Below, piece by piece: positions 3,204 through 27,890 of a DNA stretch of 64,000 bases; position 1 is the stretch's first letter; each line of letters opens with the position of its first letter. The notes below the pieces were generated by a model. It worked only from the letters and a program-made list of their open reading frames with translations, was not told the DNA's origin and searched no databases. Origin of the DNA: an archaeon (GTDB lineage Archaea > Thermoproteota > Thermoprotei_A > Marsarchaeales > Marsarchaeaceae); assembly GCA_021817005.1 (NCBI GenBank), contig JAKAWJ010000003.1, forward strand, positions 1-64,000. The letters are read 5' to 3'. A program made the translations under genes and the position numbers.

Positions 3204-3216
3204 GTAGGCGGGGCAA

Positions 3217-8772: not shown

Positions 8773-9378
8773 TTGGAAACTTACGAGCGTTGGGTTGTTA
8801 GTTTTGTTGGGCTTCTGATGATTGCCCTTGTGGCCTCGAGTATATGGGCGCACGCTACTTTCCCGGGATATGCAGACCTTTCTACATTTCTTTCTGCATC
8901 CAGTGGTTTGCATTCGTACTACGGCAGACCGCTTTCCATTGAACCCGTAGTTTACACGATTGCGCTGGGGAGCGAGTCCCAGAGTGGAGGGTCTCTTCTC
9001 CGGCTGCAGGTAAGCGGCGCTTCTTTCGTAATACCTGCCGGCACAGAATACGTACAGCCGAGCTCATACTGCGTATCTCTTGTGACGGCGAGCGCGGAAT
9101 ACACGGGTTTCTGCTATAACGAAGTCGTCTATCAAGCGGGGGCTGACACAAACATATCCTTCTATGCGCTCGTGATCAGAACTGGATTGCATATCCTTTT
9201 CCAGTCGAATTACTTGGAGGACCAAAGAAACACAACACTCCTAGGCGGAGGCTGCTACTCCCACGCACAGGGGCGCCTGTATATTACGCTGAACTCGACC
9301 GCGGTGCTTGATTTCGGTTTACCAGGGGAAGTCTGCGTGCGTTTCTATGCTCTGGCATCCGAGCTTTCTCCAGCGTGA
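8773..9378 (+). CDS. Membrane-anchored minor-pilin-like protein, locus B subunit 'a'
   Basis: A 201-residue protein with one N-terminal hydrophobic segment (about residues 8-27) and an otherwise extracellular-looking sequence. I do not recognise a named family. It shares the short motif YxRPLSI with the protein at 15756 (YMRPLSI), and a similar GRSLSI occurs in the locus C protein at 21735, at comparable distances after the membrane helix. It opens locus B with a TTG start, 6 bases ahead of the next gene. Cysteines at about residues 98 and 114, and near 156 and 191, could form disulfides. Role in pilus assembly or priming is inferred from position. Confidence 0.55.
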   Translation: METYERWVVSFVGLLMIALVASSIWAHATFPGYADLSTFLSASSGLHSYYGRPLSIEPVVYTIALGSESQSGGSLLRLQVSGASFVIPAGTEYVQPSSYCVSLVTASAEYTGFCYNEVVYQAGADTNISFYALVIRTGLHILFQSNYLEDQRNTTLLGGGCYSHAQGRLYITLNSTAVLDFGLPGEVCVRFYALASELSPA

Positions 9379-9384
9379 TCGGGT

Positions 9385-10509
9385 TTGGATAAGACTATAT
9401 CGCAAGTTTTGGTTCTGGCCACGATGCTCCTCATGGCTTCCGCGCTCGTACCCTCGGTGTTTATGCTCGAGTCCTCTAATTCATGGTATTCCTCCTTCGC
9501 AAGGCATCAGATCGCTGCACAGGCATCCCAGCGAATGTATGCGGCAATGCTCAGCCTGATATCGGACGGAGGGGGCCTGGCCTCGCAGCTAGTGAATGTT
9601 TCGAATTGGTTCAGCTGGGACTGGGCCTGCCGAAATCAGGAAATTCTTCCTGGTGGCAATCTGTATTCCGCGCCCTGCTACTCCGGCTTCCCAACATGGA
9701 ATTCGACCGCGGTGTCTCGCTCTGTGGTGCCGACAATCTACCAGTACTACTCGGTTATGCTCTACATCCCACCAGGCGTACCCTCCTTTGAGCTGAGTTT
9801 TCACTGGTCTCTTGTCGCTACCCAGTACGTGGGTTACATGAACTATTTGGCCGAAGTCTACCAGGGAAACGCTGCAAAAACCGGTGTCATGTCGCAACGC
9901 CCGATGGATTCGATATCGCTGTTCCATTCAGCCACGTACATGGGCCTGAAGGTAGGAGGGAGCGCCTCCATCTACGTAGGTGGTAACCAGACCTTTGGGC
10001 TGACAATCTCCCCAGCAAGCGGCACCATGGCCAACATAACATTTGGCGCCAGCTCTTTGAGTGAAACCAGCTCAGCGCCGGATTTTTTGGTTGAACTGCC
10101 CAGCGCGGAATATTCGACAGGTTTCAGCTATGCAGGGGGCTCGCTCGGGCCCGAGCAGGGACCCGTCGCAGAATTGCGCCTTCCAACGAAGTCAGAGTAC
10201 TCGGGCAATCTAACAATCTACTACGGTGGAAGTTTGATTGGCGCCTTTAATATAATTGCGCGTAACGGAGACGAATTCGTCTACTATCCAAGCGCAGCTT
10301 CGATGGGTAATCCAAGCGCGGGTGTTTTCCTTAGCTTCCCGGTTTCCATCTCTGCGAATGGCACATTCTTCGTGACGGGTTTTGCAGGCTCATTTCTTTC
10401 GCAGCCAACTGAGTTCAGAGTAGTAGGGGGAGGCGAGGGTGAGGCGTGGAAACTTACTCTGGTGGGTTGCGTACGAACCTGCTTGGTAACATTGAGTACG
10501 CTTGGTTGA
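9385..10509 (+). CDS. Membrane-anchored pilus-associated protein, locus B subunit 'b'
   Basis: A 374-residue protein with an N-terminal helix (ISQVLVLATMLLMASALVPSV) and a long Ser/Gly/Tyr-rich extracellular part. No catalytic motif is visible and I do not recognise the family. Its first 55 residues (hydrophobic helix, then an amphipathic stretch rich in Gln/Ala) resemble the start of the locus C protein at 22660. I therefore treat the two as equivalent minor subunits. TTG start; its 3' end overlaps only weak upstream starts of the next gene. Several potential N-glycosylation sites (NVS, NST, NQT, NIT, NLT) fit a surface location. Confidence 0.5.
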   Translation: MDKTISQVLVLATMLLMASALVPSVFMLESSNSWYSSFARHQIAAQASQRMYAAMLSLISDGGGLASQLVNVSNWFSWDWACRNQEILPGGNLYSAPCYSGFPTWNSTAVSRSVVPTIYQYYSVMLYIPPGVPSFELSFHWSLVATQYVGYMNYLAEVYQGNAAKTGVMSQRPMDSISLFHSATYMGLKVGGSASIYVGGNQTFGLTISPASGTMANITFGASSLSETSSAPDFLVELPSAEYSTGFSYAGGSLGPEQGPVAELRLPTKSEYSGNLTIYYGGSLIGAFNIIARNGDEFVYYPSAASMGNPSAGVFLSFPVSISANGTFFVTGFAGSFLSQPTEFRVVGGGEGEAWKLTLVGCVRTCLVTLSTLG

Positions 10510-10558
10510 CTGCGGCATTTGGGAATTTATGGCCAAAGGAATTTGCGGGGGAATCAGT

Positions 10559-10996
10559 ATGAAAACCAGATTCGGGTCTAGGCCAAGGTCCAGGAAGGCG
10601 GTTTCGCAGAGTCTGGAAGCCATCATTCTTGTCGTAGTGGCACTATCCATCGTTGCGGTCTACGCAGGCTGGGCGTTCGGCGTGTTCGGGCGCACGGTGA
10701 ACTCGCCGATCCTTACCGTAGCCGGGACTCCGTCCGTGCAGGGCGTTTCAAGCTCCAATCCAACGCTCTATCTCTCAATCAGGAACTCCGGCGCATCTCC
10801 CGCAAACATAACGCAGATTTACGTGAACAACGTCAAGGTAACCCTGTCAAGCGCCCAGCTCATTCAGCCCGGCTCGGCTTCTACTCTGATAGTGCCGCTT
10901 GGCAATTCGTTCTCTCTTCAACAGGGTTCAACAGTGAACATCGTGGTCGATGCGGGGGCAACCACTCTCAGTACCTCAGCTCTGGTAGAAAGTTGA
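10559..10996 (+). CDS. Type IV pilin, locus B (likely major subunit)
   Basis: A 145-residue precursor. MKTRFGSRPRSRKAV precedes SQSLEAIILVVVALSIVAVYAGW, a prepilin peptidase site followed by a helix with the conserved Glu at mature position 5 or so. The C-terminal domain is short and beta-rich, as in abundant archaeal pilins. I chose ATG 10559 because a gcggggg Shine-Dalgarno sits 8 bases upstream, while the in-frame starts at 10502 and 10529 add residues unlike a signal peptide. The TGA overlaps the ATPase start as TTGA. Confidence 0.75.
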   Translation: MKTRFGSRPRSRKAVSQSLEAIILVVVALSIVAVYAGWAFGVFGRTVNSPILTVAGTPSVQGVSSSNPTLYLSIRNSGASPANITQIYVNNVKVTLSSAQLIQPGSASTLIVPLGNSFSLQQGSTVNIVVDAGATTLSTSALVES

Positions 10997-12849
10997 GCGA
11001 AGACTCTGGGATGCTAGACTCCCTTCGAACCAAACTTCGCTCGCTCGCCCGCGGGTCAGACGGCGAGCGAGGCGAAGACTTTCCAGAAGGACAGCACAGG
11101 GTGGTGCTCGCCAAGCCGGAATCCAGAAAGAGTTTCAGGCGCTCGATTCTGGCTAGAGGCCGTGGCGATAACGGCCGCAGTGCAGGCCCGGTCCCGCGAC
11201 TGCGTGGCGAGCGTCACGGCCTCCTGAAGAAATTTGGAGGCGCGAGTTTTCGAAAGACAGGGAGGCCTCAGACTATGAAGTTCGAGGCCAAAAAAGAAGG
11301 CCCGGTATCACGAGGATTTCTCATAGCCACCCTCCCTTCTGGTTTCGCACCTGCAGTGGCACCCAAAGAAGTGGGTCTCGCCAAAGTCTATGTCCAGGGT
11401 GGAATGTACTACGTTCAGGACCCAGAAGTCCCGGCAGAAGAACTGAGCGCATACTCGAACGTCCTTCAGGAAGGACTGGAGTGGCTACCTCCCGAGGCGT
11501 TCTCGTCTGAAGACGGTCTCGAACGGATGCTTCGTTCGCGCGGAATCGACGACGAAGCGATACTGTATTTCATGCGCCGGGAGCTATCTGGGTATTCGGT
11601 GCTTCAACCGCTGGTGGACGATCCGAATGTCGAAGATATTGTTGTGGCTTCTCCTGACACTCCAATATCAGTTCGACATTCAAGCGGAACACTCGAAACG
11701 AATATAATCCTCGACGCGCCAGTTCTGGATTCGCTCGTCCAGAAGCTCGCCTCATATGCTGGAAAGCCGATCAGTACTTACAATCCACTTTTGAGCGCGA
11801 GGCTCCCGGACGGAAACCGGCTCACGCTGAACTATGGCAACGAGGTAAGCCACAGGGGCACGTCTGTAGCCATAAGGAAATTTCCGAAGGAGCCCTGGAG
11901 TGTGGCTCGACTGCTTGCACTCGGCTCCACGACACCCGAAGCGCTTGCATGGCTCTGGCTTCTTATAGAGAACAGGAAGGCGCTCATTGTAACAGGCGTG
12001 AGCGGAGTCGGGAAGACGAGCATGATCAATGCGCTCACGTCGTTCATCCCGAGTTCATCAAGAATCGTGACTGTTGAGGACGCGGGGGAGCTCAGACTGA
12101 GCCACAAACACTGGACTCCACTCGTTGCGAGATATTCCTATACGCAGAACCGGTTCGCCGAAATTTCGCTTGACCAGCTAGTCCGTCATGCGCTCAGGAT
12201 GTCAGCTGATTATATCATAGTCGGCGAAGTCAGGGGAGAAGAGGGCCACAGCTGGGCCCAGAGCATTCTGACCGGCCACGGAGGAATTACCTCGATACAC
12301 AGCGAGACACCCGAGCTTGCAATTCAGAGACTAATCTCTCCCCCCGTGAGCGTTGAACCAAGGAGCCTCACGGCTCTGCACGGTATTGTGGAACTCAGGA
12401 TGAACTCCTTCAACGGGGCTGTGACCAGGTTTGTCTCCACCATTCTGGACCACTCTCTCGAAACAGACCTCAGCTCGAGTTTTAGCAGAGTCTACCCCAG
12501 CGCGGCTTCTGCGCCGCTACTACCAGAAGACTATGCAGGTTATCCTACGGCGCAGGCGCTTGTATCACAGGGAAACCTATCTCCGGACGAACTCGCTCAG
12601 GAAATTCAGATTCGGAAACGCCTGCTCGACGTGCTCAGGTCAGAGTGCGCGCGCGACCCTGCGCTCCTCAGTCATGAGGCAGTGAGCCGGATAAGCTGGG
12701 CATACCAGGCCGAGCCAGCGCTGCGCGACCGCCCTGAAAGGCTGATTGATTTCGCTCGGACTACCTGTCCCCGGTGCTTCTCGGCACTGCCTCTCGGAGG
12801 AGTGTGCGCACGCTGTGCGGAGATCGACACCCCTGAAATAGCGGCGTAA
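10993..12849 (+). CDS. Type IV pilus assembly ATPase with C-terminal zinc ribbon, locus B
   Basis: A 618-residue secretion ATPase. The first ~110 residues are basic, Arg/Gly/Ser-rich and probably disordered. The ATPase domain has Walker A GVSGVGKTS at about 335-343, acidic box VTVEDAGE, Walker B region ADYIIVGEVRGEE and histidine box GGITSIHSE. The C-terminus carries a zinc-ribbon-like pair, CPRC (592-595) and CARC (605-608), absent from the other two ATPases here. It starts at TTG 10993 within the pilin stop (ATG 11011 is possible) and is followed 3 bases later by its membrane partner. Function, powering locus B pilus assembly, is secure by family. The role of the zinc ribbon is unknown. Confidence 0.9.
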   Translation: MSEDSGMLDSLRTKLRSLARGSDGERGEDFPEGQHRVVLAKPESRKSFRRSILARGRGDNGRSAGPVPRLRGERHGLLKKFGGASFRKTGRPQTMKFEAKKEGPVSRGFLIATLPSGFAPAVAPKEVGLAKVYVQGGMYYVQDPEVPAEELSAYSNVLQEGLEWLPPEAFSSEDGLERMLRSRGIDDEAILYFMRRELSGYSVLQPLVDDPNVEDIVVASPDTPISVRHSSGTLETNIILDAPVLDSLVQKLASYAGKPISTYNPLLSARLPDGNRLTLNYGNEVSHRGTSVAIRKFPKEPWSVARLLALGSTTPEALAWLWLLIENRKALIVTGVSGVGKTSMINALTSFIPSSSRIVTVEDAGELRLSHKHWTPLVARYSYTQNRFAEISLDQLVRHALRMSADYIIVGEVRGEEGHSWAQSILTGHGGITSIHSETPELAIQRLISPPVSVEPRSLTALHGIVELRMNSFNGAVTRFVSTILDHSLETDLSSSFSRVYPSAASAPLLPEDYAGYPTAQALVSQGNLSPDELAQEIQIRKRLLDVLRSECARDPALLSHEAVSRISWAYQAEPALRDRPERLIDFARTTCPRCFSALPLGGVCARCAEIDTPEIAA

Positions 12850-12852
12850 CCC

Positions 12853-14373
12853 ATGGACCTCAAGAAACTGATACAGGCTTCCGGACTGAGCATTTCTCCA
12901 GGTTCGCTGCGTTTTCGCCGGCGGCTGGTCACTGCAGCAGCTTTTGTGGCCTTTGCGGTAGCAGCCTTTCTTCTATATTTGCGAACCCACAGTTTGCTGG
13001 TTTTCGGTTGCCTGCCAGGAGCTGCGCTCGTGGGAGCGGCATATCCCGTGGTCTGGCTGAGGAGCGCGGCCTCTACGAGGGCGAGGATGTGTGAGCGCGA
13101 ACTGCCCTTTGTATCCACTCTTCTGGCTATCGCAGCGAATCACTCGCCTCCATCCAGAACTCTGATGACTACGGGGGCAATGCCTTCTATGAGCTGGACG
13201 CAGCGTGAGTATGCAGCGCTCGTCAAAATTTCGAAAATTATGCGCTCGACGCTCGGTCAGGCTGCGTATGAGCTGTCTACGGTGCACCCTTCCCAGCGGT
13301 TTTCTGCGCTCCTGCGCTCGGTTTCAGCTGCAGAGAGAGGTCTAGGCGACCCGTATTATACGATGAGGGACAGTTCCAGAGCTGAGCTTTCTGCTCTGAA
13401 ACAGGAAGCGGAACTATCCTCCGAGAAGCTTGGCGTGGCTTCGTCCACTGTGCTCGTAGCTTTCGCGGTCGCGCCTCTATCGATACTCGTGTTTGCCGCG
13501 ATAACCTCGCAGTCGTTCTTTGTCTACTTTGGTTCGCTGCTCTCGCTTCCCTCCGCGGTGTTGGTGGATATTATGGTGACCCGAGCCTATCCGGAAACCC
13601 TGAGGCCCTGTGTGCGTCTTCCAGGCTACTGGTTTTTGGTCGCGTCAATTGGCTCCGGCCTTGCGGCCATCTTCGTTCCCCTCCCTCTTTCAGTGCCGTT
13701 CTATATGAGGCTGGGCGGAGCGCTGGTGTTCGGCAGCCTCGTGGCAGGGCTTTCAAGCATCAGTCAAGAAAGAGCACACGCCACTCTGCTGAAAAATCTC
13801 CCTGCTCTTTCGCGGGACTTTGCTGAGGAAGCCAAGAAGGGAGTGCCCCCAAGCGCCGCCATTCCCAGATTGAAAGCCTCGCTCAAGTATCCCGCCATCC
13901 TTTTCAGCACGCTTTCGGGCCATGCACCGAAGCCATATCTCGCCCAGGCCTATCTCGACCTGGCCAAAGAAAGCGAAAGACTAGGCGCCGACACCGAGAG
14001 TCTGGAGGCCGTGTCGGATGCGGTAAACACCGTTGCGAGCATTCACTCTTCTTACCTTTCCAAGGCATCTTTCTTCAGGATGACCGCGTTTGCGAGCGCA
14101 GCGATTCTTGCCTCATCTTCCGCGATTGTGCTTCATACCTTCTCCTCTCTTTCGTCTCACGCAAGCGGAGGATATCTCCCCCCGAGCCTTGTGTTCGTCT
14201 CATTCAATCCGGCTATTGCCCCGGTAGTATTTGCCGCCGTGGTTCTCAATTCTTACCTTCTCGGAGTGCTCGCTGGTAAGGCACTGAGGGGCTCCCTGCT
14301 CTACGGCCTAAGGGACGGTGCGCTTGGTGCACTCCTCGCCACGCTCATAATTTCGGTTGGAATGGTGCTCTAG
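12853..14373 (+). CDS. Pilus platform membrane protein (TadC/FlaJ-like, divergent), locus B
   Basis: A 506-residue polytopic membrane protein with hydrophobic pairs at about 25-70, 200-240, 255-300, 410-430 and 450-505. They surround two soluble stretches (about 75-195 and 310-400) in the positions of T2SSF loops. Similarity to classical T2SSF is weaker than in loci A and C, but the layout and its place directly after the ATPase make the platform role likely. It starts with ATG 3 bases after the ATPase stop; the next gene begins 3 bases after its own stop, so translation is probably coupled. Confidence 0.75.
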   Translation: MDLKKLIQASGLSISPGSLRFRRRLVTAAAFVAFAVAAFLLYLRTHSLLVFGCLPGAALVGAAYPVVWLRSAASTRARMCERELPFVSTLLAIAANHSPPSRTLMTTGAMPSMSWTQREYAALVKISKIMRSTLGQAAYELSTVHPSQRFSALLRSVSAAERGLGDPYYTMRDSSRAELSALKQEAELSSEKLGVASSTVLVAFAVAPLSILVFAAITSQSFFVYFGSLLSLPSAVLVDIMVTRAYPETLRPCVRLPGYWFLVASIGSGLAAIFVPLPLSVPFYMRLGGALVFGSLVAGLSSISQERAHATLLKNLPALSRDFAEEAKKGVPPSAAIPRLKASLKYPAILFSTLSGHAPKPYLAQAYLDLAKESERLGADTESLEAVSDAVNTVASIHSSYLSKASFFRMTAFASAAILASSSAIVLHTFSSLSSHASGGYLPPSLVFVSFNPAIAPVVFAAVVLNSYLLGVLAGKALRGSLLYGLRDGALGALLATLIISVGMVL

Positions 14374-14376
14374 TTC

Positions 14377-14805
14377 TTGGAAGACGCTTTCGACGCAGTA
14401 GTCGCAACTTCCGCCTTTCTGCTGGTGATCATGGCTGCGCTCAATCAGGTCGTGTCTTACTATGACCACCCAACGGCAGAGCCTGAATCACTTGCCGAGG
14501 TGGTGTCTCTGGGGCTTGTGAGCAAGCTCGGCAGCAACGCGACCGCATGGAAGGAGTTCAGCAAAGTCGAACCGAGCGTTGCCGTGCTGAATGGTTCAGA
14601 CTACTTGATCTATGCCACCGGGAAGCTTCCTCTGGGCTCGGGCCAACCACCCGGGCTTTACCTGCAGCTCTCCGACTATGGGGCTAACTCTCTTGCATGG
14701 TCTGCAGTTCTGGGACTGGATTTCTCGAAACCATCTCAGTGCGAAACCAGCTACGAGTGGCTGAGCGATGGGTCGCTTTTAGTAATTGAGGTCTGCGCCA
14801 CTTGA
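14377..14805 (+). CDS. Minor pilin-like membrane-anchored protein, locus B subunit 'c'
   Basis: A 142-residue protein with one N-terminal helix (AVVATSAFLLVIMAALNQVV) and a small extracellular domain. After the helix it has a segment with LGLVSKLGSNATAWKEFS. This resembles the LLTPGSPANWGQ segment of the locus C protein at 23194, which I regard as its counterpart. TTG start, and the stop overlaps the next gene as TTGA. No family name recognised; minor-pilin role is inferred from position and architecture. Confidence 0.55.
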   Translation: MEDAFDAVVATSAFLLVIMAALNQVVSYYDHPTAEPESLAEVVSLGLVSKLGSNATAWKEFSKVEPSVAVLNGSDYLIYATGKLPLGSGQPPGLYLQLSDYGANSLAWSAVLGLDFSKPSQCETSYEWLSDGSLLVIEVCAT

Positions 14806-15179
14806 AATCTCAAGTTGGCAGCCGGGCGCAGGTTAGAACACTCGAAGCTTTGGTGGCAGTCGCAATCGTGGCGGGTGCAGCGGGAACCCTCCAGCACTAC
14901 GCAATACAGCAGACAACTGTAGCGAACGCGCAGGAGCTCCTGGACTACCTTGTGTACAATGGGACGATACCGCAAGGACTGTCCCAGCCCGGCCAGCTTG
15001 CCATCCAGCTCTCCCAACTTCTTGCTGGTCAGCCGTGGAAGCTCGAAGTTTTTGAGCTCGTGCGCGGCTCTCTGAACTTGGTGTTTGAGATGCAGAGCGG
15101 CTCGCCTAGTGCGTCTTCACCCGCCGCTGCTGTTACGTACTCCCCACACGTGGAGGTCTACTACCTTTACGCCACCTAG
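14802..15179 (+). CDS. Minor pilin-like protein, locus B subunit 'd'
   Basis: A 125-residue protein beginning with a basic segment, then VRTLEALVAVAIVAGAAGTLQHY, a pilin-type helix with an early glutamate. The locus C protein at 24432 starts almost the same way (MRTVEVLIAIGILVGGVAGL) and also continues with a small Leu/Gln/Gln-rich amphipathic region. The pair therefore looks orthologous between loci. TTG start inside the previous stop. Its TAG (15177-15179) overlaps the first sense codon of the next reading frame, which has no standard start of its own. Confidence 0.6.
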   Translation: MKSQVGSRAQVRTLEALVAVAIVAGAAGTLQHYAIQQTTVANAQELLDYLVYNGTIPQGLSQPGQLAIQLSQLLAGQPWKLEVFELVRGSLNLVFEMQSGSPSASSPAAAVTYSPHVEVYYLYAT

Positions 15180-15768
15180 GCAGAGGGGCGGGCAGGCGAT
15201 AATTCTGGCATCGCTCCTTTTTGCGGCTTTGCTCTATAGCTTGTATGCGGTGCAACTGGACGGCACAGTAGCAGGTGCGAGCTATTTTCAATCTGAATTG
15301 TATACAGATGCGCTGCTAGCCGCGCTCGCCGCGGGCTCGCACGGCGCAAACGTTTCTTCAGCTGAAACCCATTACTCGGGCTACCTAGCGGAGCTCGAGG
15401 GGCTAAATGCGAGCTACGTGTCATCAAGTATCCCGCCGGGCTCGCCTGTTTTTCAGTATTCCGGATATGGCACGAGACTCCAGACCGGAGGTTCAGTCTC
15501 TGCGCTTGCGGAATATCCGCCCTACTCTGTGGTTTTTTCTGCAACCCTTGTCTCCGAAAGCGGGACGAGCGCCGTGACCTACCTGCTATACATAAACTAC
15601 ACAGTGGACGGCAGGGCCGTGGATTTTGACAATCTCACCCTAAAGTCAAATTCGGCATTGACTTACACGATTCATGCCCAGTGGCTCAGCATAACTCACT
15701 CCGGCTCAACTGCATTCTCTGTTACGCTCTTCTCGCCTACGGGGGTCGACCTGAAGTGGTCTCTGTAG
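15178..15768 (+). CDS. Class III signal peptide protein, locus B subunit 'e' (no canonical start codon)
   Basis: A frame of about 196 codons. Its N-terminal region reads RQRGGQAIILASLLFAALLYSLYAVQLD, that is R-x-x-G, G|Q and a hydrophobic helix: the archaeal class III signal peptide, cut between Gly and Gln. No ATG, GTG or TTG precedes this in frame closer than GTG 15109, which would add about 23 low-complexity residues read from the previous gene's alternative frame. The frame is +1 relative to the upstream gene and opens exactly at that gene's TAG. The mature part is small, extracellular-looking, with glycosylation sites (NVS, NAS, NYT, NLT). The locus C counterpart at 25806 has the same problem. 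The 5' boundary given is the first codon after the overlapping stop. Confidence 0.6.
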   Translation, partial: RQRGGQAIILASLLFAALLYSLYAVQLDGTVAGASYFQSELYTDALLAALAAGSHGANVSSAETHYSGYLAELEGLNASYVSSSIPPGSPVFQYSGYGTRLQTGGSVSALAEYPPYSVVFSATLVSESGTSAVTYLLYINYTVDGRAVDFDNLTLKSNSALTYTIHAQWLSITHSGSTAFSVTLFSPTGVDLKWSL

Positions 15769-16169
15769 CCCTGGAATCATCGTTGGTGCTGGCCATCGGT
15801 TTGCTCATGATATTCGGCGCGCTGCGCTCGGCGGAAACCCCTGTTGCGCCGGGGTGCCCCGTGAATCCGCTTGTGCCAGTGGGCCTTGCGCTTGAGGCCG
15901 CGTACATGCGCCCTCTCTCCATCCAGGTCGCGCAAATCGATGGAAAATCGGTTGTCAATTTCTCAGAGAACGCTGTCAGCTTTGAGGGCTGCACCGCCCC
16001 TTTTCCGGCTATACCCGACCCGTCCAGTATGTTTGGCGGCCAGAGTGCGAAGAGACTAACTCTCAACAGTCCTGTTGTGTTTGCGTCAGCAGGGGTTTAC
16101 TATTCCTGTCCATGCGAAATCTACTTTGAGTATCTGACGTGGAATTCTACCATGCGTGTCAGAGGTTAG
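15756..16169 (+). CDS. Minor pilin-like protein with RPLSI motif, locus B second 'a'-type subunit
   Basis: A 137-residue protein starting at GTG 15756, overlapping the previous stop by 13 bases; TTG 15783 is an alternative. VALESSLVLAIGLLMIFG is a pilin-like helix with a Glu near its start. After it comes AYMRPLSIQ, the motif shared with the proteins at 8773 and 21735. It contains CPVNP, CTAP and a CPC pair that could form disulfides. It ends locus B. Confidence 0.55.
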   Translation: MVSVALESSLVLAIGLLMIFGALRSAETPVAPGCPVNPLVPVGLALEAAYMRPLSIQVAQIDGKSVVNFSENAVSFEGCTAPFPAIPDPSSMFGGQSAKRLTLNSPVVFASAGVYYSCPCEIYFEYLTWNSTMRVRG

Positions 16170-16401
16170 CGAGGAACCAGACCATGTTCTGCATTTGGTT
16201 TTGATCTTTTTGTGCAACGAGAGTAGGGAACTGTTCGCCGATAGCCCAGCTCAAACTTGGCTGGTTTTCGCTTCTGTCCCCGCTGCGGCGGGCAGTAACA
16301 TTCCGGAATCGTACCTGCGGCCGGGCCCCGGAGTGCGAACTCCTCAAGATGCGTCGGGTAAGCATTATTAGTCTGGAGCAATGCTCACACGCTGAATCTG
16401 G

Positions 16402-17649: not shown

Positions 17650-17826
17650 TCGACGCGGCTCTTGCGCCTGACAGGAAATCGTACCGTGTAAAGGGAGTGC
17701 CCGGCCCGGCTCAGTATTTTTCACGTGTTCGCCCGCCCGTCACCAAGGTCAGAAGGGACTAGCGAATACCGCAGGTCTCTAATAATAAAAGTTAAATATC
17801 CACTTTACGCCACAGGGGTGAAAGAT

Positions 17827-18258
17827 TTGTCGATCGAACTTCATACCTTCAAGAGTGTGGCAGAGCTGACCAAGCAGCTCGATGACGAGGTATCGAGAAT
17901 AAAAACCCTGCTCGGAGAGTATTTGCGGAGACTCGATGAGTCTCGGGCGAGGCTGGAAAAGCTAAGGAAGACACAGGAAGTAATATCGAAGCTCACTGGA
18001 GGAAAGTCTGCAGCAGCGAGGACTGGTGAAGGGCAGACGCTCGACCTTATGGGGCTCAAGGTTCTTGTTTATGTGTCTCCTGAAGATGAGGCAGAAGTGC
18101 TTGAGGAATCGGTCAAAACACTTCAGGACAAGCTGAACGTCCTGCAGAGAGTGCGTAAAGCTTTGGAGCCTCTTGGGTCGCTAGAAGAAGCCGGGGCTAC
18201 GCTAACCGCGGTTATGAATGACGGCATTCCGACACGCATACTACTCAAAGTGACATAA
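17827..18258 (+). CDS. Hypothetical coiled-coil protein
   Basis: About 143 residues. Residues 12-60 form a charged coiled coil, a short beta-like segment (LDLMGLKVLVYVS) follows, then a second helix (about 85-115) and a short C-terminal strand. The helix-strand-helix plan is prefoldin-like, but I cannot assign it. A promoter ttaaatat at 17792-17799 and a ggggtga Shine-Dalgarno at 17814-17820 favour TTG 17827; GTG 17818 is an alternative. It stands alone between unrelated genes. Confidence 0.55.
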   Translation: MSIELHTFKSVAELTKQLDDEVSRIKTLLGEYLRRLDESRARLEKLRKTQEVISKLTGGKSAAARTGEGQTLDLMGLKVLVYVSPEDEAEVLEESVKTLQDKLNVLQRVRKALEPLGSLEEAGATLTAVMNDGIPTRILLKVT

Positions 18259-19442: not shown

Positions 19443-19631
19443 GAAGACAGGCTATATATACATTCCTGCGCAGTCATACGGACGTTCAGCCATTCCGCAG
19501 CCCTCATTTGAGCTCGGTTTGACGAATGTTGCAGGGTTCCTTGAAGATGGTTTGATTTTTGGCGGCTCATGAGCGTGCTGTGCTTGTCTCCTTTATGATG
19601 AGCGTCATCGCCTTGTTCAAGAGCTGTTCAG

Positions 19632-21404
19632 TCAGACGCCAGGAATTTTGAAGAAGACGGTTGCGATAAAGACTACGATTCCGCTCACTGCTGCAAGGAG
19701 AGAGGCGTGTTTGAAGCCAGCAGCTATGCTGCCCTCGCCCATTTTCCCAGCGACGAATCCCATGACCCAGCTCGTGAATACTGCACCAGCCAGCATCGGG
19801 CTCGTGATTGATGCCGCGTTGATTCCAGACGAAAACGGGTTGTATCCCTGGCCCGTTATCACTGGAGAAGTCAGGAAGTAGACCATGAGCACTGTAGTGA
19901 CAACTATCATGATTGCACCGAAATATGGAATGAATACGTACGGCCGTAGCTGGCTCTTCTTCTCCTTATCAATCTGAGCTGTTCGCTCTACGAAGTCGGC
20001 CAGAGTGCCGAGCATCTCGGGAGTGCCTCCGCCTACATCCACAACCTCGGAGAGGAGGAACATGGTGGCCTGGGTCATCCAGCTCCTTGTTTTCTTCATT
20101 ATGCCTTGCACGATCTGTCGCAGGGGTATACCCCAGCTGAGTTCGGAAGCCATGCCGCTCACCACGCGCGAAAGACCGCCGTAATTTCTTGTTGCCACCT
20201 GCTCTATACATTTTTCTGGAGCCAGTCCGGTCTTGCGGACTTCTGCGATATCCCGGATAAAGCTGGGTATCATGCGTTCCAGGCTTCCGCGCGCCCTGTT
20301 TTCCCTGATGCTCACTATCGCGCCGGGTAATGTCGCCAGTGTAAGTCCGGCTGCGAGCTTGTAAACGAGGGAAACGCCATGTAATGGAAGAATTACTGCG
20401 ATTGGGATGATTGGAACGCTTGCAAGAAATATAAAATAGGGGCGGTAGTAGTTGAAGGGCTCCTTGGGCTGCACGCTGTGGGATATGTAGATAAATACGG
20501 CCGAGACAGCTGGATTGAAGACTGTGGTGAGAAGTATGATGCGCTGCACTCCTCCGCCCCCTGAACCGGCGCCACTTGCGGAGCCCAGAATGGTCTGAAC
20601 TGCGAAGAGCACGAAAAGCCCTATTCCCAGAATTACGGCCACGGAGATGTAGGACTCTGCAAAAGTGCCAATTGTATCGGCCGCACTTTTCACCTTTATT
20701 GCGCGATACGCAAAAACGTCTTTCACCTTCGACTGCATGTAGTCGACAGTATCTCCTCCGGTCTTGAGCACGCTAGTATAACCCCCGAAGAAATCAGCGA
20801 AGACCCGGTTAGGGTTATACCTCGCAGCTTTTTCCAGCGCTGTTATCGGGTCGTTTGCGAATATTTCGATATCCATGAGTATTCGGCGGGCTTCGAGCGC
20901 AGATTTGGGGTACAGGGTTACGTTAGACAGCCGCTTTAGTGTCATGATGGGCGACACGCCTCCGCTGGCCAGCACTGTTATGTAGCCGACCACGAACGGA
21001 AGCTCATCATCAAGGGCAGCACTCCTTCCGCTGGCTATCATCGAAGGGTATGACAGACCAAGCCCAAAAGCGAGCACTGGTGCTATTGCGATTGTAGCAA
21101 GCAGTGGAAGACGGAAGAGCACGGCAAGCGCAAGCCCCACGCCTACGACCGGAAGTGTAAAGACCGTCACCATGACCACAAGAGAAAGGTAAGCCTCTGT
21201 CGAGTAGTTCATTCCGCTCTTCATGATTTGGGTAGGAAGTTCGGGCATTTTGGATGAAAGGAAGCGTGAGGCCCAGCCAAACCGTCTGAAAGCGTAGGCC
21301 GCTGCAGCTTCGCCAAATGTGCTCTCACGAGGCTGTTCCTGAGACTTTTCCGCCTCGGCTGGCGAAGGTTTCGCTACTGCCTTCTTTCTATTTCTTAATA
21401 CCAA
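19632..21404 (-). CDS. Type IV pilus platform membrane protein (TadC/FlaJ-like), locus C
   Basis: A 590-residue platform protein. The N-terminal ~70 residues are soluble and charged. Membrane helix groups lie at about 70-125, 250-275, 290-360, 485-510 and 535-590, with two T2SSF-like loops between (about 130-245 and 370-480). The loops contain DDELPFVVGYITVLASGG and RMIPSFIRDIAEVRKTGL, the archaeal FlaJ/TadC signature starts. TTG 21404 is the only upstream start. It is divergent from the locus C pilin operon and separated from its presumed ATPase (28188-29798) by that operon, unlike loci A and B where the two are adjacent. Confidence 0.87.
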   Translation of the reverse strand: MVLRNRKKAVAKPSPAEAEKSQEQPRESTFGEAAAAYAFRRFGWASRFLSSKMPELPTQIMKSGMNYSTEAYLSLVVMVTVFTLPVVGVGLALAVLFRLPLLATIAIAPVLAFGLGLSYPSMIASGRSAALDDELPFVVGYITVLASGGVSPIMTLKRLSNVTLYPKSALEARRILMDIEIFANDPITALEKAARYNPNRVFADFFGGYTSVLKTGGDTVDYMQSKVKDVFAYRAIKVKSAADTIGTFAESYISVAVILGIGLFVLFAVQTILGSASGAGSGGGGVQRIILLTTVFNPAVSAVFIYISHSVQPKEPFNYYRPYFIFLASVPIIPIAVILPLHGVSLVYKLAAGLTLATLPGAIVSIRENRARGSLERMIPSFIRDIAEVRKTGLAPEKCIEQVATRNYGGLSRVVSGMASELSWGIPLRQIVQGIMKKTRSWMTQATMFLLSEVVDVGGGTPEMLGTLADFVERTAQIDKEKKSQLRPYVFIPYFGAIMIVVTTVLMVYFLTSPVITGQGYNPFSSGINAASITSPMLAGAVFTSWVMGFVAGKMGEGSIAAGFKHASLLAAVSGIVVFIATVFFKIPGV

Positions 21405-21734: not shown

Positions 21735-22622
21735 ATGTTTTTCCGAAGCCGGACTCACAGGCGTGCCATCAGTCCGGTCATAGCTACTGTGATCTTGCTC
21801 GCTGTGTTCATAGCTCTCGTTTCTGCTGCGCTTGCGTTCGTGGACACCGAACTTACTTCATATTATGCAAACTCCGACCTAGCCTCAAGCTCAACGTTCG
21901 CACAGAATTACGCTCAAGCTGTGCAGAGCGTTGGCATGACCTTTGGTAGAAGCCTGAGCATAGGTTACGGAGTGAAGTACGCGCAACTTGCCTTCATTCC
22001 CGCTGCTCTGCAGTATACTATAACAGTGGGCAGCCAGAGCTGCCTCATAGTCACCGGATTCCTTCTCAGTGCGATATCGGCAAGCTATTACTCGCTGGGC
22101 AAGAATTACTATATCAACTATTATCCCGGAAAGTTCAGTGGGCTGTCCTCGATTGGTGCCAGTGGTAGCTTCGCCAGAGCTTTTGCCACTGAATACCAGT
22201 CCACGCCAAATTCGCCGTTCTTTCTTGATACGGTTGTAATGGGCATCCCCCAAGTGACGAATTTTATGCTCACCACTCCAGGATCCTCACCTGTTAATAT
22301 AACTCGGATATATCTTCCAGAATTGTACTATAGAAATAATCCCATCCCTATGGATTGTTCTGGTTCAATGGGGCCTTCTACAGAAGTGACAAGATTCACT
22401 TCGCCTACGGGTTATATTTCGGCTCAGGGACAGGGCCTTCAGGTAGAGACCTACTCAAGCACTTCCACGACGTTCCAGATTACTGCGAGTGCAACTCCCG
22501 CATTTTCCTCGCAGTATCCTCTGAGCTTTTACCATTTTAGCTCAAGCACCCAGACATTTCATATACAATCTGGTCAAGAAATACAGATATTTATAGGAGA
22601 CATCGAAGTACTTGGTGTATAG
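21735..22622 (+). CDS. Type IV pilin-like protein, locus C subunit 'a'
   Basis: A 295-residue protein starting MFFRSRTHRRA, cleaved before ISPVIATVILLAVFIALVSAAL, a textbook archaeal pilin N-terminus. It is larger than typical pilins. After the helix comes TFGRSLSIGYG, similar to the RPLSI motif of the locus B proteins at 8773 and 15756. The domain has a CSGS and a CLIV cysteine. ATG 21735 fits the TATA box; GTG 21720 is upstream but would precede the expected transcript start. It is the first gene of a five-gene operon. Confidence 0.72.
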   Translation: MFFRSRTHRRAISPVIATVILLAVFIALVSAALAFVDTELTSYYANSDLASSSTFAQNYAQAVQSVGMTFGRSLSIGYGVKYAQLAFIPAALQYTITVGSQSCLIVTGFLLSAISASYYSLGKNYYINYYPGKFSGLSSIGASGSFARAFATEYQSTPNSPFFLDTVVMGIPQVTNFMLTTPGSSPVNITRIYLPELYYRNNPIPMDCSGSMGPSTEVTRFTSPTGYISAQGQGLQVETYSSTSTTFQITASATPAFSSQYPLSFYHFSSSTQTFHIQSGQEIQIFIGDIEVLGV

Positions 22623-22659
22623 GCTATGAGATTAACGCGGGAGCTGGAAGTGAGGCTAG

Positions 22660-23181
22660 TTGGCTGATGTAGTAATTGGGAACGTTATACTCACTGCAGC
22701 GTTGGCGATTGGGCTCATACTCTTCATTTCTGCGGCCCAGGGTTTTTCTTTGATATACTCGATAAGGGCTCAGGATACTCTGGTTCAGGGTGACGTAGAC
22801 GCTGTGGCTCAGGAAATTCAGCAGGTATATCTCATTGTGAACCAGTCGCTCTTCCCCCCAGGCACCACTTACGTCCTGAAGAACTTGGGCCTGCCCAATC
22901 AGTTGTTGGGATTTCCTTACAGGATATCTCTCGAACTGTCCCAGGTTACCGCTCGCGAACACGAGCTTCTGGTCACGATTTCCCTGATAGGCGCTCAGGG
23001 AAAGGCATCTACTAGCGTGATACTCGGCGAAAACATTCAATTGCTGTCTACCGGAGCCGTGCAAGGTTCAACCACGACATCACTCGTTGCGTACAAATGT
23101 GGTTCGGGGGGAGGTTCGGTAGTTATTGGGGGGAACACGTATCCCTGCACGAATCCGTCTTTTGTGGAGATGAGTCTATAG
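22660..23181 (+). CDS. Minor pilin-like protein, locus C subunit 'b'
   Basis: A 173-residue protein with an N-terminal helix (VVIGNVILTAALAIGLILFISAA), no basic prepilin stretch, then an amphipathic Gln-rich helix (VDAVAQEIQQVYLIVNQS) and a beta domain. The helix/Gln-rich start resembles the locus B protein at 9385. There is a C-terminal cysteine pair (CGSG, CTNP). TTG start behind a weak gtgagg Shine-Dalgarno. The next gene starts 12 bases after its stop. Family not recognised. Confidence 0.55.
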   Translation: MADVVIGNVILTAALAIGLILFISAAQGFSLIYSIRAQDTLVQGDVDAVAQEIQQVYLIVNQSLFPPGTTYVLKNLGLPNQLLGFPYRISLELSQVTAREHELLVTISLIGAQGKASTSVILGENIQLLSTGAVQGSTTTSLVAYKCGSGGGSVVIGGNTYPCTNPSFVEMSL

Positions 23182-23193
23182 AGTTGAGTTCAA

Positions 23194-24423
23194 ATGGTTA
23201 GCGAAATGATAGATTACATTGCGGCAGCATTAGGGATTGTGCTCGTGTTTATTGCTGGTGTTTTCTTCTTTACGTCGGCTGTCACGAACGGCCTCGCGTT
23301 CTCAAACCAGCAAAATGCTGCGCAGCAGGCAGAGAATCTGCTGGACTATATACTCTTGACTCCCGGCTCGCCTGCGAACTGGGGGCAAATCTCAACCGCC
23401 CCCCTTGCCTTGGGTCTTGCCTCGCCCACGTCACAGACTGAATATTCGCTCAGCCAGTACAGTCTTATGCGTCTACTCGTTCCGAACGCAAGTGCCACGC
23501 TGAATTTTAAAGGAGTGAACTACGAGTCGGTCTATTTGGGTGGTTATGATTACATAAGTGCACCGAGCTCCTATTTCCTGAATTATTCCTACGCAAAGAC
23601 ACTGCTGAATATCACGAGGGCGTATGAGTTCCGGTTAACTGTCAGGGCCGCGCTGAACGTTTCGATATCAGAGGTGTCGTCTTCGAAATATAGTGTCAGC
23701 GTGGTTTCGAGCTCTGGCAGCCCTGTGGTTGGTGCGAACGTCATAGCGTCTCTTGTATACGGAATATCTGAAGGCTCTAACAAAGTACCGCACCTAGGCA
23801 TCTCAACTGCTACTGGTACCACTGGACCCCAGGGAACTGTTACATTGTCCTTTGGCGTCAGCAATCCTTCTGGAGTAGGTGAGTATTATGTAGTAGCTCA
23901 GGTAGAGAGCGGAGGGTTAACCGGAGAGGGGTATCACTACTTTAACTCCGCTTCTCAGCCACTGACGTATATCTTATACAATGCAGGGGCGCCTAACCAA
24001 GTTACTGTCGTTCAGCATTGTGCAATCGGTACTACACCGCCATGCGGAACTGATTACATTAACGTTAGTATTGCTGATCTGAGTAATGGAGCAAATACAC
24101 AAACACAGCTCACATGCAACGTGACAAAGATCAATCCCGGAAAGGGAGGGGGAGATAATGGGGATAATTCAACTTGCAAGGGCACGATTCTTGGCGGATT
24201 CATCGTTGTGACATCGCAGAAATCTGGTAATGGTTCGAACAGCTATCCGACGGTTCAGTTATTTCCTATTAACTTTGCGGTTGGATTGGCGACTCAGTTC
24301 GGGGGCAATCCAACTGGTTCGCCCGACGCCGTGACCACCAGTCGAGTGGTGCTTGTAGCTGGAATAAGCTACGTGGTATCGCTGGTTTACTGGCCGGATG
24401 TTGGCCCAGAGTACGGAGGCTAA
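23194..24423 (+). CDS. Membrane-anchored surface protein with Ig-like domain, locus C subunit 'c'
   Basis: A 409-residue protein with an N-terminal helix (YIAAALGIVLVFIAGVFFFTSA), then AENLLDYILLTPGSPANWGQ, similar to the locus B protein at 14377. Residues ~170-255 (SGSPVVGANVIASLVYG and later GTVTLSFGVSNPSGVGEYYV) form an Ig/carboxypeptidase-regulatory-like beta sandwich, missing in the smaller locus B counterpart. Cysteines in CAIG, CGTD, CNVT and CKGT may be disulfide-linked. There are many glycosylation sequons. It is likely a pilus-associated adhesive subunit (inference). Confidence 0.58.
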   Translation: MVSEMIDYIAAALGIVLVFIAGVFFFTSAVTNGLAFSNQQNAAQQAENLLDYILLTPGSPANWGQISTAPLALGLASPTSQTEYSLSQYSLMRLLVPNASATLNFKGVNYESVYLGGYDYISAPSSYFLNYSYAKTLLNITRAYEFRLTVRAALNVSISEVSSSKYSVSVVSSSGSPVVGANVIASLVYGISEGSNKVPHLGISTATGTTGPQGTVTLSFGVSNPSGVGEYYVVAQVESGGLTGEGYHYFNSASQPLTYILYNAGAPNQVTVVQHCAIGTTPPCGTDYINVSIADLSNGANTQTQLTCNVTKINPGKGGGDNGDNSTCKGTILGGFIVVTSQKSGNGSNSYPTVQLFPINFAVGLATQFGGNPTGSPDAVTTSRVVLVAGISYVVSLVYWPDVGPEYGG

Positions 24424-24431
24424 AAACATTG

Positions 24432-25805
24432 ATGCGGACAGTAGAAGTGCTCATCGCGATTGGCATTCTTGTCGGTGGCGTCGCTGGGCTTACAGCGTAT
24501 ACGAATATACCAGCCCCCCAGTCGATTTATTCCACGCAGCTCCAGAACCTTGGCTACTCGGCTCTTTCGCACGCTGAAAGCAGCGGCGTTCTGCAAGCTG
24601 CCGCATTCAACCCCTCTGGGAGTTCCATGGCCCAGCTGCAGCAATCCTTGCTCGCAGTGTTACCAGGGGACGTCGTTTACAATCTTACGGTCTATCAGGT
24701 CGCAGGCGCGCAAGGCTCAACGGGACTGACTACGTACACGCCGGTAGCTTCCAGCTCGGATTACGTCGGAAACGGTCCAAAGTTCACGGTGAGCGTATCT
24801 TACGTTGTCGCCCCGCTTAACCTGAGCTACGTGTTAAGCGCCCGTCCCTACAAAGCAAATCTCTTTATTCTCAACACTTCTGATGCCGAGGGATGGTGGA
24901 CCACGGGTTACACTGGTGCAGTTCTCGCTTCTTCGCTCAAGTCTCTTCTTACCGAGCGAGCTTACTTCAATGCTACTATTACGATTAACAATACCAGAGA
25001 AATGTATGAACTTTTCAGTGCAGGAAAAATCGCAGTGAGGGGCGGAATAAACTCTTACGGACTGCAGGGGGGGATTGTTATCAATGTTTTCGGCGAAGCT
25101 GTCCCGATACCTTCCGAATTTTTTATAAACCATAACAATAACAACGTTTGCCCTGGATTTAGTACCGAACTCTATTGCTATGATTATTGGCTCGGCGGGG
25201 AGGTAAGCATGTACAACGTTACTTGGGTAAGTGTGGTAGGATGGCCATTTTATGAAGTGAGCAACACGAATTCTGCGTTTGATGCAATGCAATTCAATGG
25301 TTCTGCCTGCCCTTATGGGTACCCATACTTCGGAGTTTACGGAATCTGTGGTCAAGGTCCATCGGGGCTAAATGCTTTTGCTGCCGGCCTTGGCGGAGTA
25401 CAGGATGGGACATGTTCACTAAGTCCCGGAGGTACGTTACCAGGCCAACTTTCCTCTCAAGTTAAAGCGGCAGAAAATGCATACGGTATCTATGTCAATC
25501 CCACCCAGACGTCGACTCGCGCAATGCCTCCAGGCGAGTTTGAGAATTGCAAGCTAAATCCAACGCTGAGCTTAATCACCGCAAGCGGTACTGGATATGA
25601 CCCCGCTGAGGTCTACACTCACCAGTGCAGCAGTGGGTCGGGCGTCTGCGGGAGTTTCATCGACATCGGTCTTGTGCGCATCCCTGATATACGAACTACG
25701 GCGCTTGCTTTGTTCGCCTATTTCCAGCCTGCGGTAGCTCCCAATGCAAACTATCTCGCCACGGGTTACACAAGGCTCGTGGTGCTGCAACTGGGTGAAG
25801 TTTGA
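24432..25805 (+). CDS. Pilin-like surface protein, locus C subunit 'd'
   Basis: A 457-residue protein starting MRTVEVLIAIGILVGGVAGL, a type IV pilin-like helix with Glu near mature position 5. It is the counterpart of the 125-residue locus B protein at 14802 but carries a far larger, Tyr/Asn/Gly-rich extracellular region with cysteines (CPGFSTELYC, CPYG, CGQG, CSLS, CKL, CSSGSGVC). TTG 24429 directly precedes ATG 24432. It ends with TGA at 25803-25805, which is in frame with the next coding stretch. Confidence 0.6.
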   Translation: MRTVEVLIAIGILVGGVAGLTAYTNIPAPQSIYSTQLQNLGYSALSHAESSGVLQAAAFNPSGSSMAQLQQSLLAVLPGDVVYNLTVYQVAGAQGSTGLTTYTPVASSSDYVGNGPKFTVSVSYVVAPLNLSYVLSARPYKANLFILNTSDAEGWWTTGYTGAVLASSLKSLLTERAYFNATITINNTREMYELFSAGKIAVRGGINSYGLQGGIVINVFGEAVPIPSEFFINHNNNNVCPGFSTELYCYDYWLGGEVSMYNVTWVSVVGWPFYEVSNTNSAFDAMQFNGSACPYGYPYFGVYGICGQGPSGLNAFAAGLGGVQDGTCSLSPGGTLPGQLSSQVKAAENAYGIYVNPTQTSTRAMPPGEFENCKLNPTLSLITASGTGYDPAEVYTHQCSSGSGVCGSFIDIGLVRIPDIRTTALALFAYFQPAVAPNANYLATGYTRLVVLQLGEV

Positions 25806-27890
25806 ACGCACACACCTGCAAAACGCAATAGTGGGCAGTTCATAATAGCCGCCGCTGGAATAATACTGATACTTATGATTGCAACAGTTCTTTTCCTCTA
25901 TACGAATCTGCCAAGTCAGCAGATTGCCGTAGGAAACCCGCTGCAGGCCGTGCAGAGCGTCGAGCAGGGGATGAATCACGTTTATGCCGCGAGTGCGAGT
26001 TACTATTCCTCGATACTGAACGTGACCGGAAACTACACCTTCGCGAGGCAGCAGGCTCTATCGCTTACCCAAGAAGGTTTTGACCGTCTTTCTGTGCTCT
26101 ATTCTCTCTATGGCCTGAGTTTCAACGCAACGCCCACGGAGGTTCGAGCCTCTTGGTATTCTCCTAGGAGTTATACCTACGCTTCTGGGGTAGTGAGCTT
26201 TAACCTGAGTGTGCAGGGCCTGAGTGGCATAACCTATAACGCGAGTCAGGAGCTCAGCGTCGACATAACATCAACGTCATCGTGCGGCATTTACAAGTGT
26301 TCAGACGTTCAAGTGGCTGAACAAGGGGGAGTGAATGACGCTGCGCTCACAAGTTCTAACTTTTACTTCTACGTTTTCGACGGACAGACTTCGATCTGGG
26401 TTAGGGCCTCTCCTTCCTCTCAGGTAGTTAACTATGGTAATGGTACATACGCTGTGCCGTTACCGAGTTCCTCTTCTACGTCTCTCTACGTACTGGGCGT
26501 GCAGGACAGCAGGGGAATAACCGTGATAGCTACGAATGCACACGAAATAACTTACTCTCTGACAGACTCCAACCCTGTGAACCAGAATGTGACTTTCGAG
26601 TTTCTAAATAACGGCACAGTGACCGAACTCGGGCAGTGTGTTGTCTCTTGCAGTTCGTCATCGGTCTCGGTTCCTATACCCCCCGTGCCGGTCAAGGATA
26701 TTCTCGTAAACGAAACACTGAGCGGCCACAAATCTGCCTATGTTCCCTTCCAAGTCGAAGACTGGGCATCAAACTATACTGTCCCGCTCGGATTATCTGG
26801 CAATCTCACTCTCTTTTCGAACTTTCAGATGGTCGTCACAATGGTAAATCCTTCTGATACTCAAAGCGTAACTATATCTTGGAACGGCACTGACTCTTCG
26901 AGGCAGACTCTGTATGCGATTCCGGATCGTGTACCGGGCGAGAAGGGGGGTACGTATTTCAGTCATAGCCTTAGCTCATCGAACAATGATATCTATACGA
27001 ATGGTGCGCTAAGTATCAGTATCCCTCAGGGAGGCTCAACGGCAGGCGTGGTTTTGACCATATCCGAGGAAAGCAAACTTTCGACTGTGCTGGGAACCGT
27101 GAACATTGTCCGAGCTGATGGTGTGACCCCCAGTGAGGGAGGAGGGTACGCCTATACTCTCGTGCCGGGAGTAGTACGAGATATTCTACAGGTCGAGCCC
27201 GAGAACCCGAGCGGCTGGGGGAATGCAAACAACCTCTACTTCCAGGCAGTTATACTGATTCCCGCGGATACGCAGTGGATTCAGGTGATTAATAGAGCGT
27301 ACTTTGTAACCGCTCCCTATTCGAGGAGTGTTAACGACCTAATGTTTGACAAGCTTGTACCCAATTGCGGGTCCCCATGCAATGGATTCAACGCTTTCGT
27401 CCAATGGGTAAATAATACGATTGACAATACCAATTATTTTGTGGCTTTAGGGAAGAACATGTCTTTTGACCAGAGCAACTCCACCAATATTCACCTCTGG
27501 GCCGCTTACTGTTATGGTCCCGGCCCGTCAGGTGGAACACAACTTCCCACCCAAACTACTGACCCCTGTACCGAAGGGGGCACTTACAACGTAGGAGTTC
27601 TGATGATGAATGCTGCTCTACAGAATCTTTACGCGTTTACGAATTCGCTCAGAAACTGCGGTGGCGGGTTTGGTGTTTCAACTGTGTCAGGGTCCCAGTA
27701 TCTGGAGGTCGACCCTGTGATACCCGCAACATGTGAAGGTGGGCTCTCCCCTTCGCCAACTTACGCCGCAACCCTTAGTTGGACAGGAATATTCTGGTTT
27801 TGGCCACCTCGGGCTCCCATACGCATAGACGCATATAGTTTGGCCAGCCTTGTGGAGTACCCCCCGACGTTGACGGTGACGACCTCCTAG
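25806..27890 (+). CDS. Large class III signal peptide surface protein, locus C subunit 'e' (no canonical start codon)
   Basis: About 694 codons, open immediately after the TGA of the preceding gene and in the same frame. The N-terminus reads THTPAKRNSG|QFIIAAAGIILILMIATVLFLY, with a class III site (G|Q) and a hydrophobic helix. It matches the shorter locus B protein at 15178. The first standard start is ATG 25875, in the middle of that helix, and would destroy the signal. TTG 25802, at the expected TTGA position, is in another frame. The extracellular part is rich in Ser/Thr/Asn, with many NxT/S sequons and a few cysteines, and ends without a second anchor. Probable tip or adhesive subunit (inference). 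Confidence 0.6.
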   Translation, partial: THTPAKRNSGQFIIAAAGIILILMIATVLFLYTNLPSQQIAVGNPLQAVQSVEQGMNHVYAASASYYSSILNVTGNYTFARQQALSLTQEGFDRLSVLYSLYGLSFNATPTEVRASWYSPRSYTYASGVVSFNLSVQGLSGITYNASQELSVDITSTSSCGIYKCSDVQVAEQGGVNDAALTSSNFYFYVFDGQTSIWVRASPSSQVVNYGNGTYAVPLPSSSSTSLYVLGVQDSRGITVIATNAHEITYSLTDSNPVNQNVTFEFLNNGTVTELGQCVVSCSSSSVSVPIPPVPVKDILVNETLSGHKSAYVPFQVEDWASNYTVPLGLSGNLTLFSNFQMVVTMVNPSDTQSVTISWNGTDSSRQTLYAIPDRVPGEKGGTYFSHSLSSSNNDIYTNGALSISIPQGGSTAGVVLTISEESKLSTVLGTVNIVRADGVTPSEGGGYAYTLVPGVVRDILQVEPENPSGWGNANNLYFQAVILIPADTQWIQVINRAYFVTAPYSRSVNDLMFDKLVPNCGSPCNGFNAFVQWVNNTIDNTNYFVALGKNMSFDQSNSTNIHLWAAYCYGPGPSGGTQLPTQTTDPCTEGGTYNVGVLMMNAALQNLYAFTNSLRNCGGGFGVSTVSGSQYLEVDPVIPATCEGGLSPSPTYAATLSWTGIFWFWPPRAPIRIDAYSLASLVEYPPTLTVTTS

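Follow-up and report, generated by a model that had tools for sequence, protein, structure and literature searches.

Archaeal pili are numerous, and most of their minor subunits are recorded as 'hypothetical' proteins of untraced origin. In the survey by Makarova et al. (2016, PMC4858521), the PilB4-type euryarchaeal system is given a pilin set of its own, the clade 4C haloarchaeal system shares pilins with it, the loci of Desulfurococcales carry three to four extra components whose origin is untraced, and a four-component pilus ancestor is deduced, made of an ATPase and TadC with a single minor and a single major pilin. Deletion of the haloarchaeal pilB1-C1 genes (clade 4C) lowers adhesion (Legerme and Pohlschroder 2019, PMC6491452). 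The present analysis concerns the minor pilins of two type IV pilus (T4P) loci, B and C, in a window of 64,000 nucleotides (positions 1-64,000 of its contig) from a Marsarchaeaceae archaeon whose genome assembly measures 1.93 Mb and is 85% complete. A preliminary description of this DNA had proposed that both loci use a conserved set of five matching subunit types, a to e, which belong to no described pilus type. The set was recovered in full in locus C and, in part, in locus B. The explanation that we prefer, with a probability of roughly 0.6, is that B and C descend from one ancient minor-pilin set whose members form a priming, tip-adhesin complex.

Locus C contains, on the plus strand and in the order a-b-c-d-e, the genes aC (21735..22622, DUF7289-like), bC (22660..23181, DUF7266-like), cC (23194..24423, DUF7287-like, with the motif LLTPGSPANWG), dC (24429..25805, DUF7288-like) and eC (25806..27890, DUF7261-like). 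They are flanked on the opposite strand by a TadC-like platform protein with two T2SSF matches (19632..21404) and a GspE/VirB11-type assembly ATPase (28188..29813). The C set occurs in the same order in genomes G004 and G002 and twice in G001. In searches with hidden Markov models of C-type c and d, tallied by hand over 250 genomes sampled from the phylum Thermoproteota, c and d were neighbours in 25 genomes (27 loci). All 20 of the c-d loci fetched for inspection of gene order carry the a-b-c-d-e set, with the ATPase inside the locus in 17; among these 20, b is poorly resolved in L169, a is truncated in L171 and the frame of e is uncertain in L173. Two main layouts were seen, ATPase-TadC-a-b-c-d-e and a-b-ATPase-TadC-c-d-e, and genomes G181 and G161 each hold one operon of either kind (L168/L169 and L170/L171, respectively). 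In the Thermoproteia family f3, which is likely to represent the Desulfurococcales, the ATPase and TadC come first, followed by a, as a rule a further type a gene (a'), then b, c, d and e, where c to e were partly assigned from position and start motif. Type b of this family reaches about 870 amino acid residues (aa) in most loci (L095, L211-L217), far above its size elsewhere.

The set extends to the Halobacteria. None of the window proteins passes the Pfam gathering score of a haloarchaeal family of this group; only cC reaches DUF7287, with E 0.0058, below the cut-off. As a direct label for cC this family was rejected, the match being absent in the orthologs and across 151 genomes, yet the weak resemblance led to the haloarchaeal operon. 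A search with the locus C ATPase retrieved haloarchaeal plasmid loci from Haloferax mediterranei (pHME505) and from a plasmid of Halobaculum halophilum; on both, five genes recorded as 'hypothetical' come after an ATPase and TadC and belong to the families DUF7287, DUF7288, DUF7261-like, DUF7266 and DUF7289. When compared as profiles, these five pair one-to-one with c, d, e, b and a, the best score always lying on the diagonal (a 8.7e-7, b 4.1e-9, c 1.5e-4, d 4.6e-6, e 2e-4); the haloarchaeal b has a second match, to a (5.7e-6). Individual proteins of types a, b, c and e from Thermoproteota loci match the Pfam families DUF7289, DUF7266, DUF7287 and DUF7261, the values for members of other lineages being 1.3e-5 for DUF7289, 2.3e-6 for DUF7266 and 3.4e-4 for DUF7261. 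The one-to-one pairing thus shows that the set spans Halobacteria and Thermoproteota beside an ATPase and TadC, and that the c-d-e block is constant while a and b shift around it.

The five-type set of the preliminary description is accordingly correct for locus C, and the suggestion that it represents no described pilus type must be narrowed. The haloarchaeal five are Pfam families of unknown function in a T4P operon, and pilin sets of the PilB4 and 4C types are described in the 2016 survey (PMC4858521); what stands is that the set had been only partly noted, and no paper naming the five families was found among the open papers searched. The locus C set is a fast-evolving version of this haloarchaeal pilin set and not an unknown pilus type. 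The new elements appear to be the one-to-one link across the divide between euryarchaea and the TACK group (Thaum-, Aig-, Cren- and Korarchaeota), together with the tie to the untraced Desulfurococcales components; the five-pilin set is a likely source of those crenarchaeal components.

Locus B has the same c-d-e order as locus C, as had been described, in the plus-strand genes cB (14377..14805), dB (14802..15179) and eB (15178..15768). The genes called a and b stand directly 5' of c in locus C, and their supposed equivalents in locus B, aB (8773..9378) and bB (9385..10509), precede the ATPase. Direct phmmer searches of B against C and HHalign runs with shallow family profiles of five sequences each were too weak, except for dB against one dC (E 0.017) and aC against the PilA-like pilin pB. 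The shallow profiles gave their best scores to d-d and e-e and none to a-a, b-b or c-c, the match of aC to pB being unexpected. Profiles built from other lineages alone recognized the C families strictly on the diagonal (a 1.1e-24, b 1.8e-17, c 2e-42, d 1.5e-42, e 5.9e-38); applied to locus B, they matched e at 6.6e-9 over 187 columns, d at 1.5e-5 over 88 and c at 1e-3 over 62, and found no match in aB, bB or the sixth pilin-like gene, fB. In searches of the type profiles against 3957 open reading frames (ORFs), all five dB sequences stood right behind dC in rank, and the first unrelated ORF followed at E 0.64; one eB was found at 5e-5 and the remaining eB lower yet near the top, and the c, a and b profiles did not pick up individual B members.

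By these comparisons the d-d and e-e pairs were graded as confirmed, c-c as supported, and a-a and b-b as unsupported. The proposal of matching subunits thus survives an all-against-all profile comparison for c, d and e and fails for a and b: types c, d and e are common to the two loci, firmly for d and e and with moderate confidence for c, and for a and b no sharing is detectable. The two checks proposed in the preliminary description, profile-profile comparison and a neighbourhood search, support the occurrence of c-d-e beside GspE-type ATPases of other archaea and leave the pairings of a and b without support. The match of a cC model to dB (E 0.014) was considered as an alternative pairing and discarded as a resemblance between c and d, the deep profiles assigning dB to d.

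The sequence motifs on which the pairing had been based fared unequally. The R and E of the d start motif RT-[LV]E[AV]L are invariant across 19 d proteins, and in the G|Q signal of type e the Q is invariant and the G present in at least 90%. The c motif, given as LGS/PGS..W, holds among 18 c proteins as an invariant or nearly invariant LL.xG.P.xW, of which cB keeps no invariant residue but the W. The RxLSI motif used to equate the a types is constant among aC proteins (FGRS[LV]SIGY), but two of the four aB members read GDPLNV; with no such conservation in aB, the shared motif is a coincidence. The gene at 15756, fB, which had been listed with the matching subunits, is conserved in the family and matches none of the five types, and its assignment to type a or b found no support in the profile comparisons. 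The pilin at 10550 (pB), left out of the set at first, is PilA-like and resembles type a in signal and helix only.

The subunits of locus C are larger than those of locus B: c has 409 aa against 142, d 458 against 125, and e 694 against at least 196. Outside the family, c measures 293-550 aa in Thermoproteota, d usually 132-180 and e 158-1155, and the haloarchaeal c is short as well (179-186 aa). The view that the C versions have grown holds for d, which gained a domain of about 300 aa in locus C and in seven inspected loci of families f14, f32 and f45; it does not hold for c, where the 142-aa cB is a reduced form because the type normally has 293-550 aa in Thermoproteota. Domain swaps are seen as well. 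The type d of L178 (2314-3384) contains a vWA domain (E 4e-22) and the e of the same operon an Ig-like domain; elsewhere one e bears an F5/8C domain (5e-11) and others Ig-like domains.

A combined initiation and tip complex with adhesive heads is the best reading of this architecture by analogy with bacterial T4P, whose assembly is primed by minor pilins that bear vWA or lectin domains and sit at the tip, and with TadEFG, which form the tips of Tad pili (PMC12075869). The lowered adhesion after deletion of pilB1-C1 (PMC6491452) agrees with it. Locus C keeps all of a to e, and locus B retains much shortened, fast-evolving c, d and e, with genes of its own in place of a and b. The subunits would be processed by the prepilin peptidase, which is encoded elsewhere in the source genome, on contig C25. 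Types c, d and e, joined in locus C by a and b, may then pair by their N-terminal helices, within the membrane and over TadC, into an initiation complex, beneath which the ATPase would insert PilA-like major pilins (the 10550 product in locus B). The minor pilins would end at the filament tip, where variable, exchangeable ectodomains could bind surfaces, cells or the surface layer (S-layer). Homology, gene order, conserved signals and domain swaps are the observed part of this reading; tip position, priming and adhesion are its proposed part.

The same ectodomains admit another placement. The five may be base or stator components that anchor the pilus to membrane and S-layer, like the minor archaellins ArlF and ArlG. 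The 2016 survey (PMC4858521), taking the archaellum as its analogy, puts minor pilins close to the base, and the large C-type ectodomains could contact the S-layer; the vWA, F5/8C and Ig domains of some d and e would nevertheless suit an exposed tip better, and d and e differ widely in their ectodomains but conserve signals and helices. A basal location is considered unlikely.

That B and C share only the generic features of type IV pilins (signal, hydrophobic helix, beta-rich domain), so that the pairing is convergence and the gene order chance, would account for the low probabilities of the shallow B-C comparison, for the failure of a-a and b-b throughout and for the likeness of all types in the N-terminal helix. 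Against it, broad N-terminal profiles in HH profile-profile comparisons matched locus B at 8.5e-8 for d, 1.6e-6 for e and 1.6e-5 for c, the runner-up types scoring about 11-24 points lower. When the B columns were permuted within blocks of 12 and the maximum score taken for the matching pair, the observed scores of 48.5 (d), 40.7 (e) and 35.3 (c) compared with shuffled maxima of 16.6, 23.9 and 27.6; the scores of aB, bB and fB stayed close to those of their own shuffles. Types d and e thus lie far above off-type and shuffled controls over about 75-190 columns that reach past the helix, and c-d-e stand in one constant order across locus B, locus C, other Thermoproteota and Halobacteria, which makes purely generic similarity quite improbable. 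It is equally hard to credit that some of the five co-polymerize in the shaft of a heteropolymeric filament, a suggestion made for PilB4-type pilins and one that the PilA-like N-terminus of type a might recall, given that c to e, of up to 1155 aa with lineage-specific domains, are unsuited to a repeating shaft, that each is usually single-copy and that separate PilA-like genes lie in or beside many loci.

Several observations weigh against descent of both loci from one tip-forming set. The five types resemble each other at the N-terminus, a likeness by which weak matches are inflated, so that c-c, the weakest pair, leans on gene position too. The products aB and bB match neither a nor b, and locus B may work differently. 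The placement of any of a to e at the tip was reached by inference and not by structure or experiment; the first model of dC was poor, and the best one has a mean predicted local distance difference test score (pLDDT) of 73 and an added ectodomain without a match in the PDB. The locus C ATPase, finally, groups with those of other five-pilin operons (support 98/96 and 94/94 in two trees), the locus B ATPase forms a separate long branch outside the clade that holds C, and the two are not sisters. The approximately unbiased (AU) test rejects a grouping of the B ATPase with those of the a-b-ATPase-TadC-c-d-e (type II) layout at p 0.013, a value to be read with caution in view of the long branches. 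Assignment of locus B to the type II operons (like L169, L171 and L181) was abandoned, the gene order fitting and the ATPase tree not. In line with a proposal of the 2016 survey (PMC4858521), the motor and the pilin set appear to be modules that evolve separately.

The class III signal is clear in aC (TIGR02537 above cut-off), in pB and, as G|Q, in type e; b, c and the C-type d are without an obvious charged signal. In eC and eB no ATG, GTG or TTG stands just before the G|Q signal. An ACG follows the sequence GGTGA in eC where the relatives L084, L083 and L081 have ATG, and the same is seen in G004, of the same genus. Candidate starts of eB are GTG at 15109, TTG at 15085 and an ACG that lies in frame eight codons ahead of the Q, at about 15163. 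It is possible that both e paralogs start with ACG.

ORFs are present at every coordinate named in the preliminary description. In locus B, all on the plus strand, aB encodes 201 aa and bB 374 aa, each with one N-terminal transmembrane helix and without detectable homology to types a and b; aB is lineage-specific and bB is kept in family f1 only. They are followed by pB (10550..10996), the probable major pilin, with a weak NCBIfam UpsA match and an N-terminus like that of type a, by the GspE/VirB11-type assembly ATPase (10993..12849) and by a TadC-like platform protein of 506 aa (12853..14373), which is under the Pfam T2SSF threshold and was assigned from its position, its transmembrane pattern and a weak tblastn match to relatives of the locus C TadC. 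After c-d-e comes fB (15756..16169, 137 aa). All junctions but one overlap or are at most 6 bases apart, the gap between bB and pB being 40, and locus B therefore looks like a single operon. The B set is also found in G004, G001, G002 and G003, of the same family, and in G002 the B and C pilin sets are again adjacent, with the C-type ATPase elsewhere; the retention of both sets in same-family genomes indicates that the genes are real and under selection. Searches of the 250 genomes with bB or eB profiles gave no convincing B-like locus elsewhere, and a contig search with the locus B TadC matched only a metagenome-assembled genome of the same genus.

Directly 5' of locus B lies the gene of the tetraether lipid synthase Tes (6989-8701; NCBIfam NF045702, 724 bits), which likewise precedes locus B in G001, G002 and G003. 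Immediately 3' a protein of 415 aa (16402-17649), conserved in the family, has no Pfam or NCBIfam match. A cytoplasmic coiled-coil protein (17725..18258, plus strand) lies between loci B and C and is possibly a pilus regulator; look-alikes, judged by eye, adjoin T4P ATPases in other Thermoproteia (L087, L089, L090). Three T4P-type ATPases are encoded in the window, in loci A, B and C, and a fourth on contig C2 of the source genome. Locus A (140-5085) has three further pilin-like genes with an ATPase, on a very long branch, and TadC.

A five-member set with an invariant c-d-e block provides a naming scheme across Halobacteria and Thermoproteota, and it suggests an ancestral pilus deeper than the four-component one of 2016. 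It is tempting to speculate, with the odds somewhat against us, that the set with its c-d-e core predates the euryarchaeal-TACK split, was the ancestral initiation and tip complex of archaeal pili and was a source of the bacterial TadE/F/G tips; the last step is suggested because archaeal pili are regarded as the origin of Tad (PMC6668835). If so, a five-pilin ancestor would replace the ancestor with one minor and one major pilin, and locus B would be an initiation complex eroding to three recognizable members while its motor was replaced. The window, which holds enlarged and shrunken sets side by side with different motors, bears on the modularity of motor and pilins. The five haloarchaeal genes offer a tractable route to whether archaeal pili need a minor-pilin priming and tip complex like the bacterial ones.

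No FlaH/ArlH KaiC-like protein and no FlaF/G was found beside loci B or C, unlike the archaellum-like locus assigned by eye in a relative (L038). Bacterial Tad pili, whose tips are TadEFG complexes (PMC12075869), would work alike, in that several minor pilins with variable domains stand beside TadA/TadC-type motors; at the level of sequence membership a single type b member gave a marginal TadE match (E 0.047). None of the minor pilins of B or C reached the cut-off of a pilin family in Pfam. The Aap, Ups and Bas pili of Sulfolobus share the GspE-type ATPase, TadC and a PilA-like pilin, and pB weakly matches UpsA; they differ in that no c-d-e set is described for them and their NCBIfam models do not match aC or eC. 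The published Desulfurococcales loci, which we infer to be those of family f3, compare with a-(a')-b-c-d-e beside ATPase and TadC, the difference being the b of about 870 aa in most f3 loci. The closest known systems include the haloarchaeal PilB4-type and clade 4C operons, and the plasmid loci may be of either type. The plasmid operons differ from locus C in their order c-d-e-b-a, with a and b after e, in shorter ectodomains and in an ATPase of 955-989 aa on a separate branch; they share with it the ATPase and TadC and five single-transmembrane pilin-like genes, with c-d-e intact.

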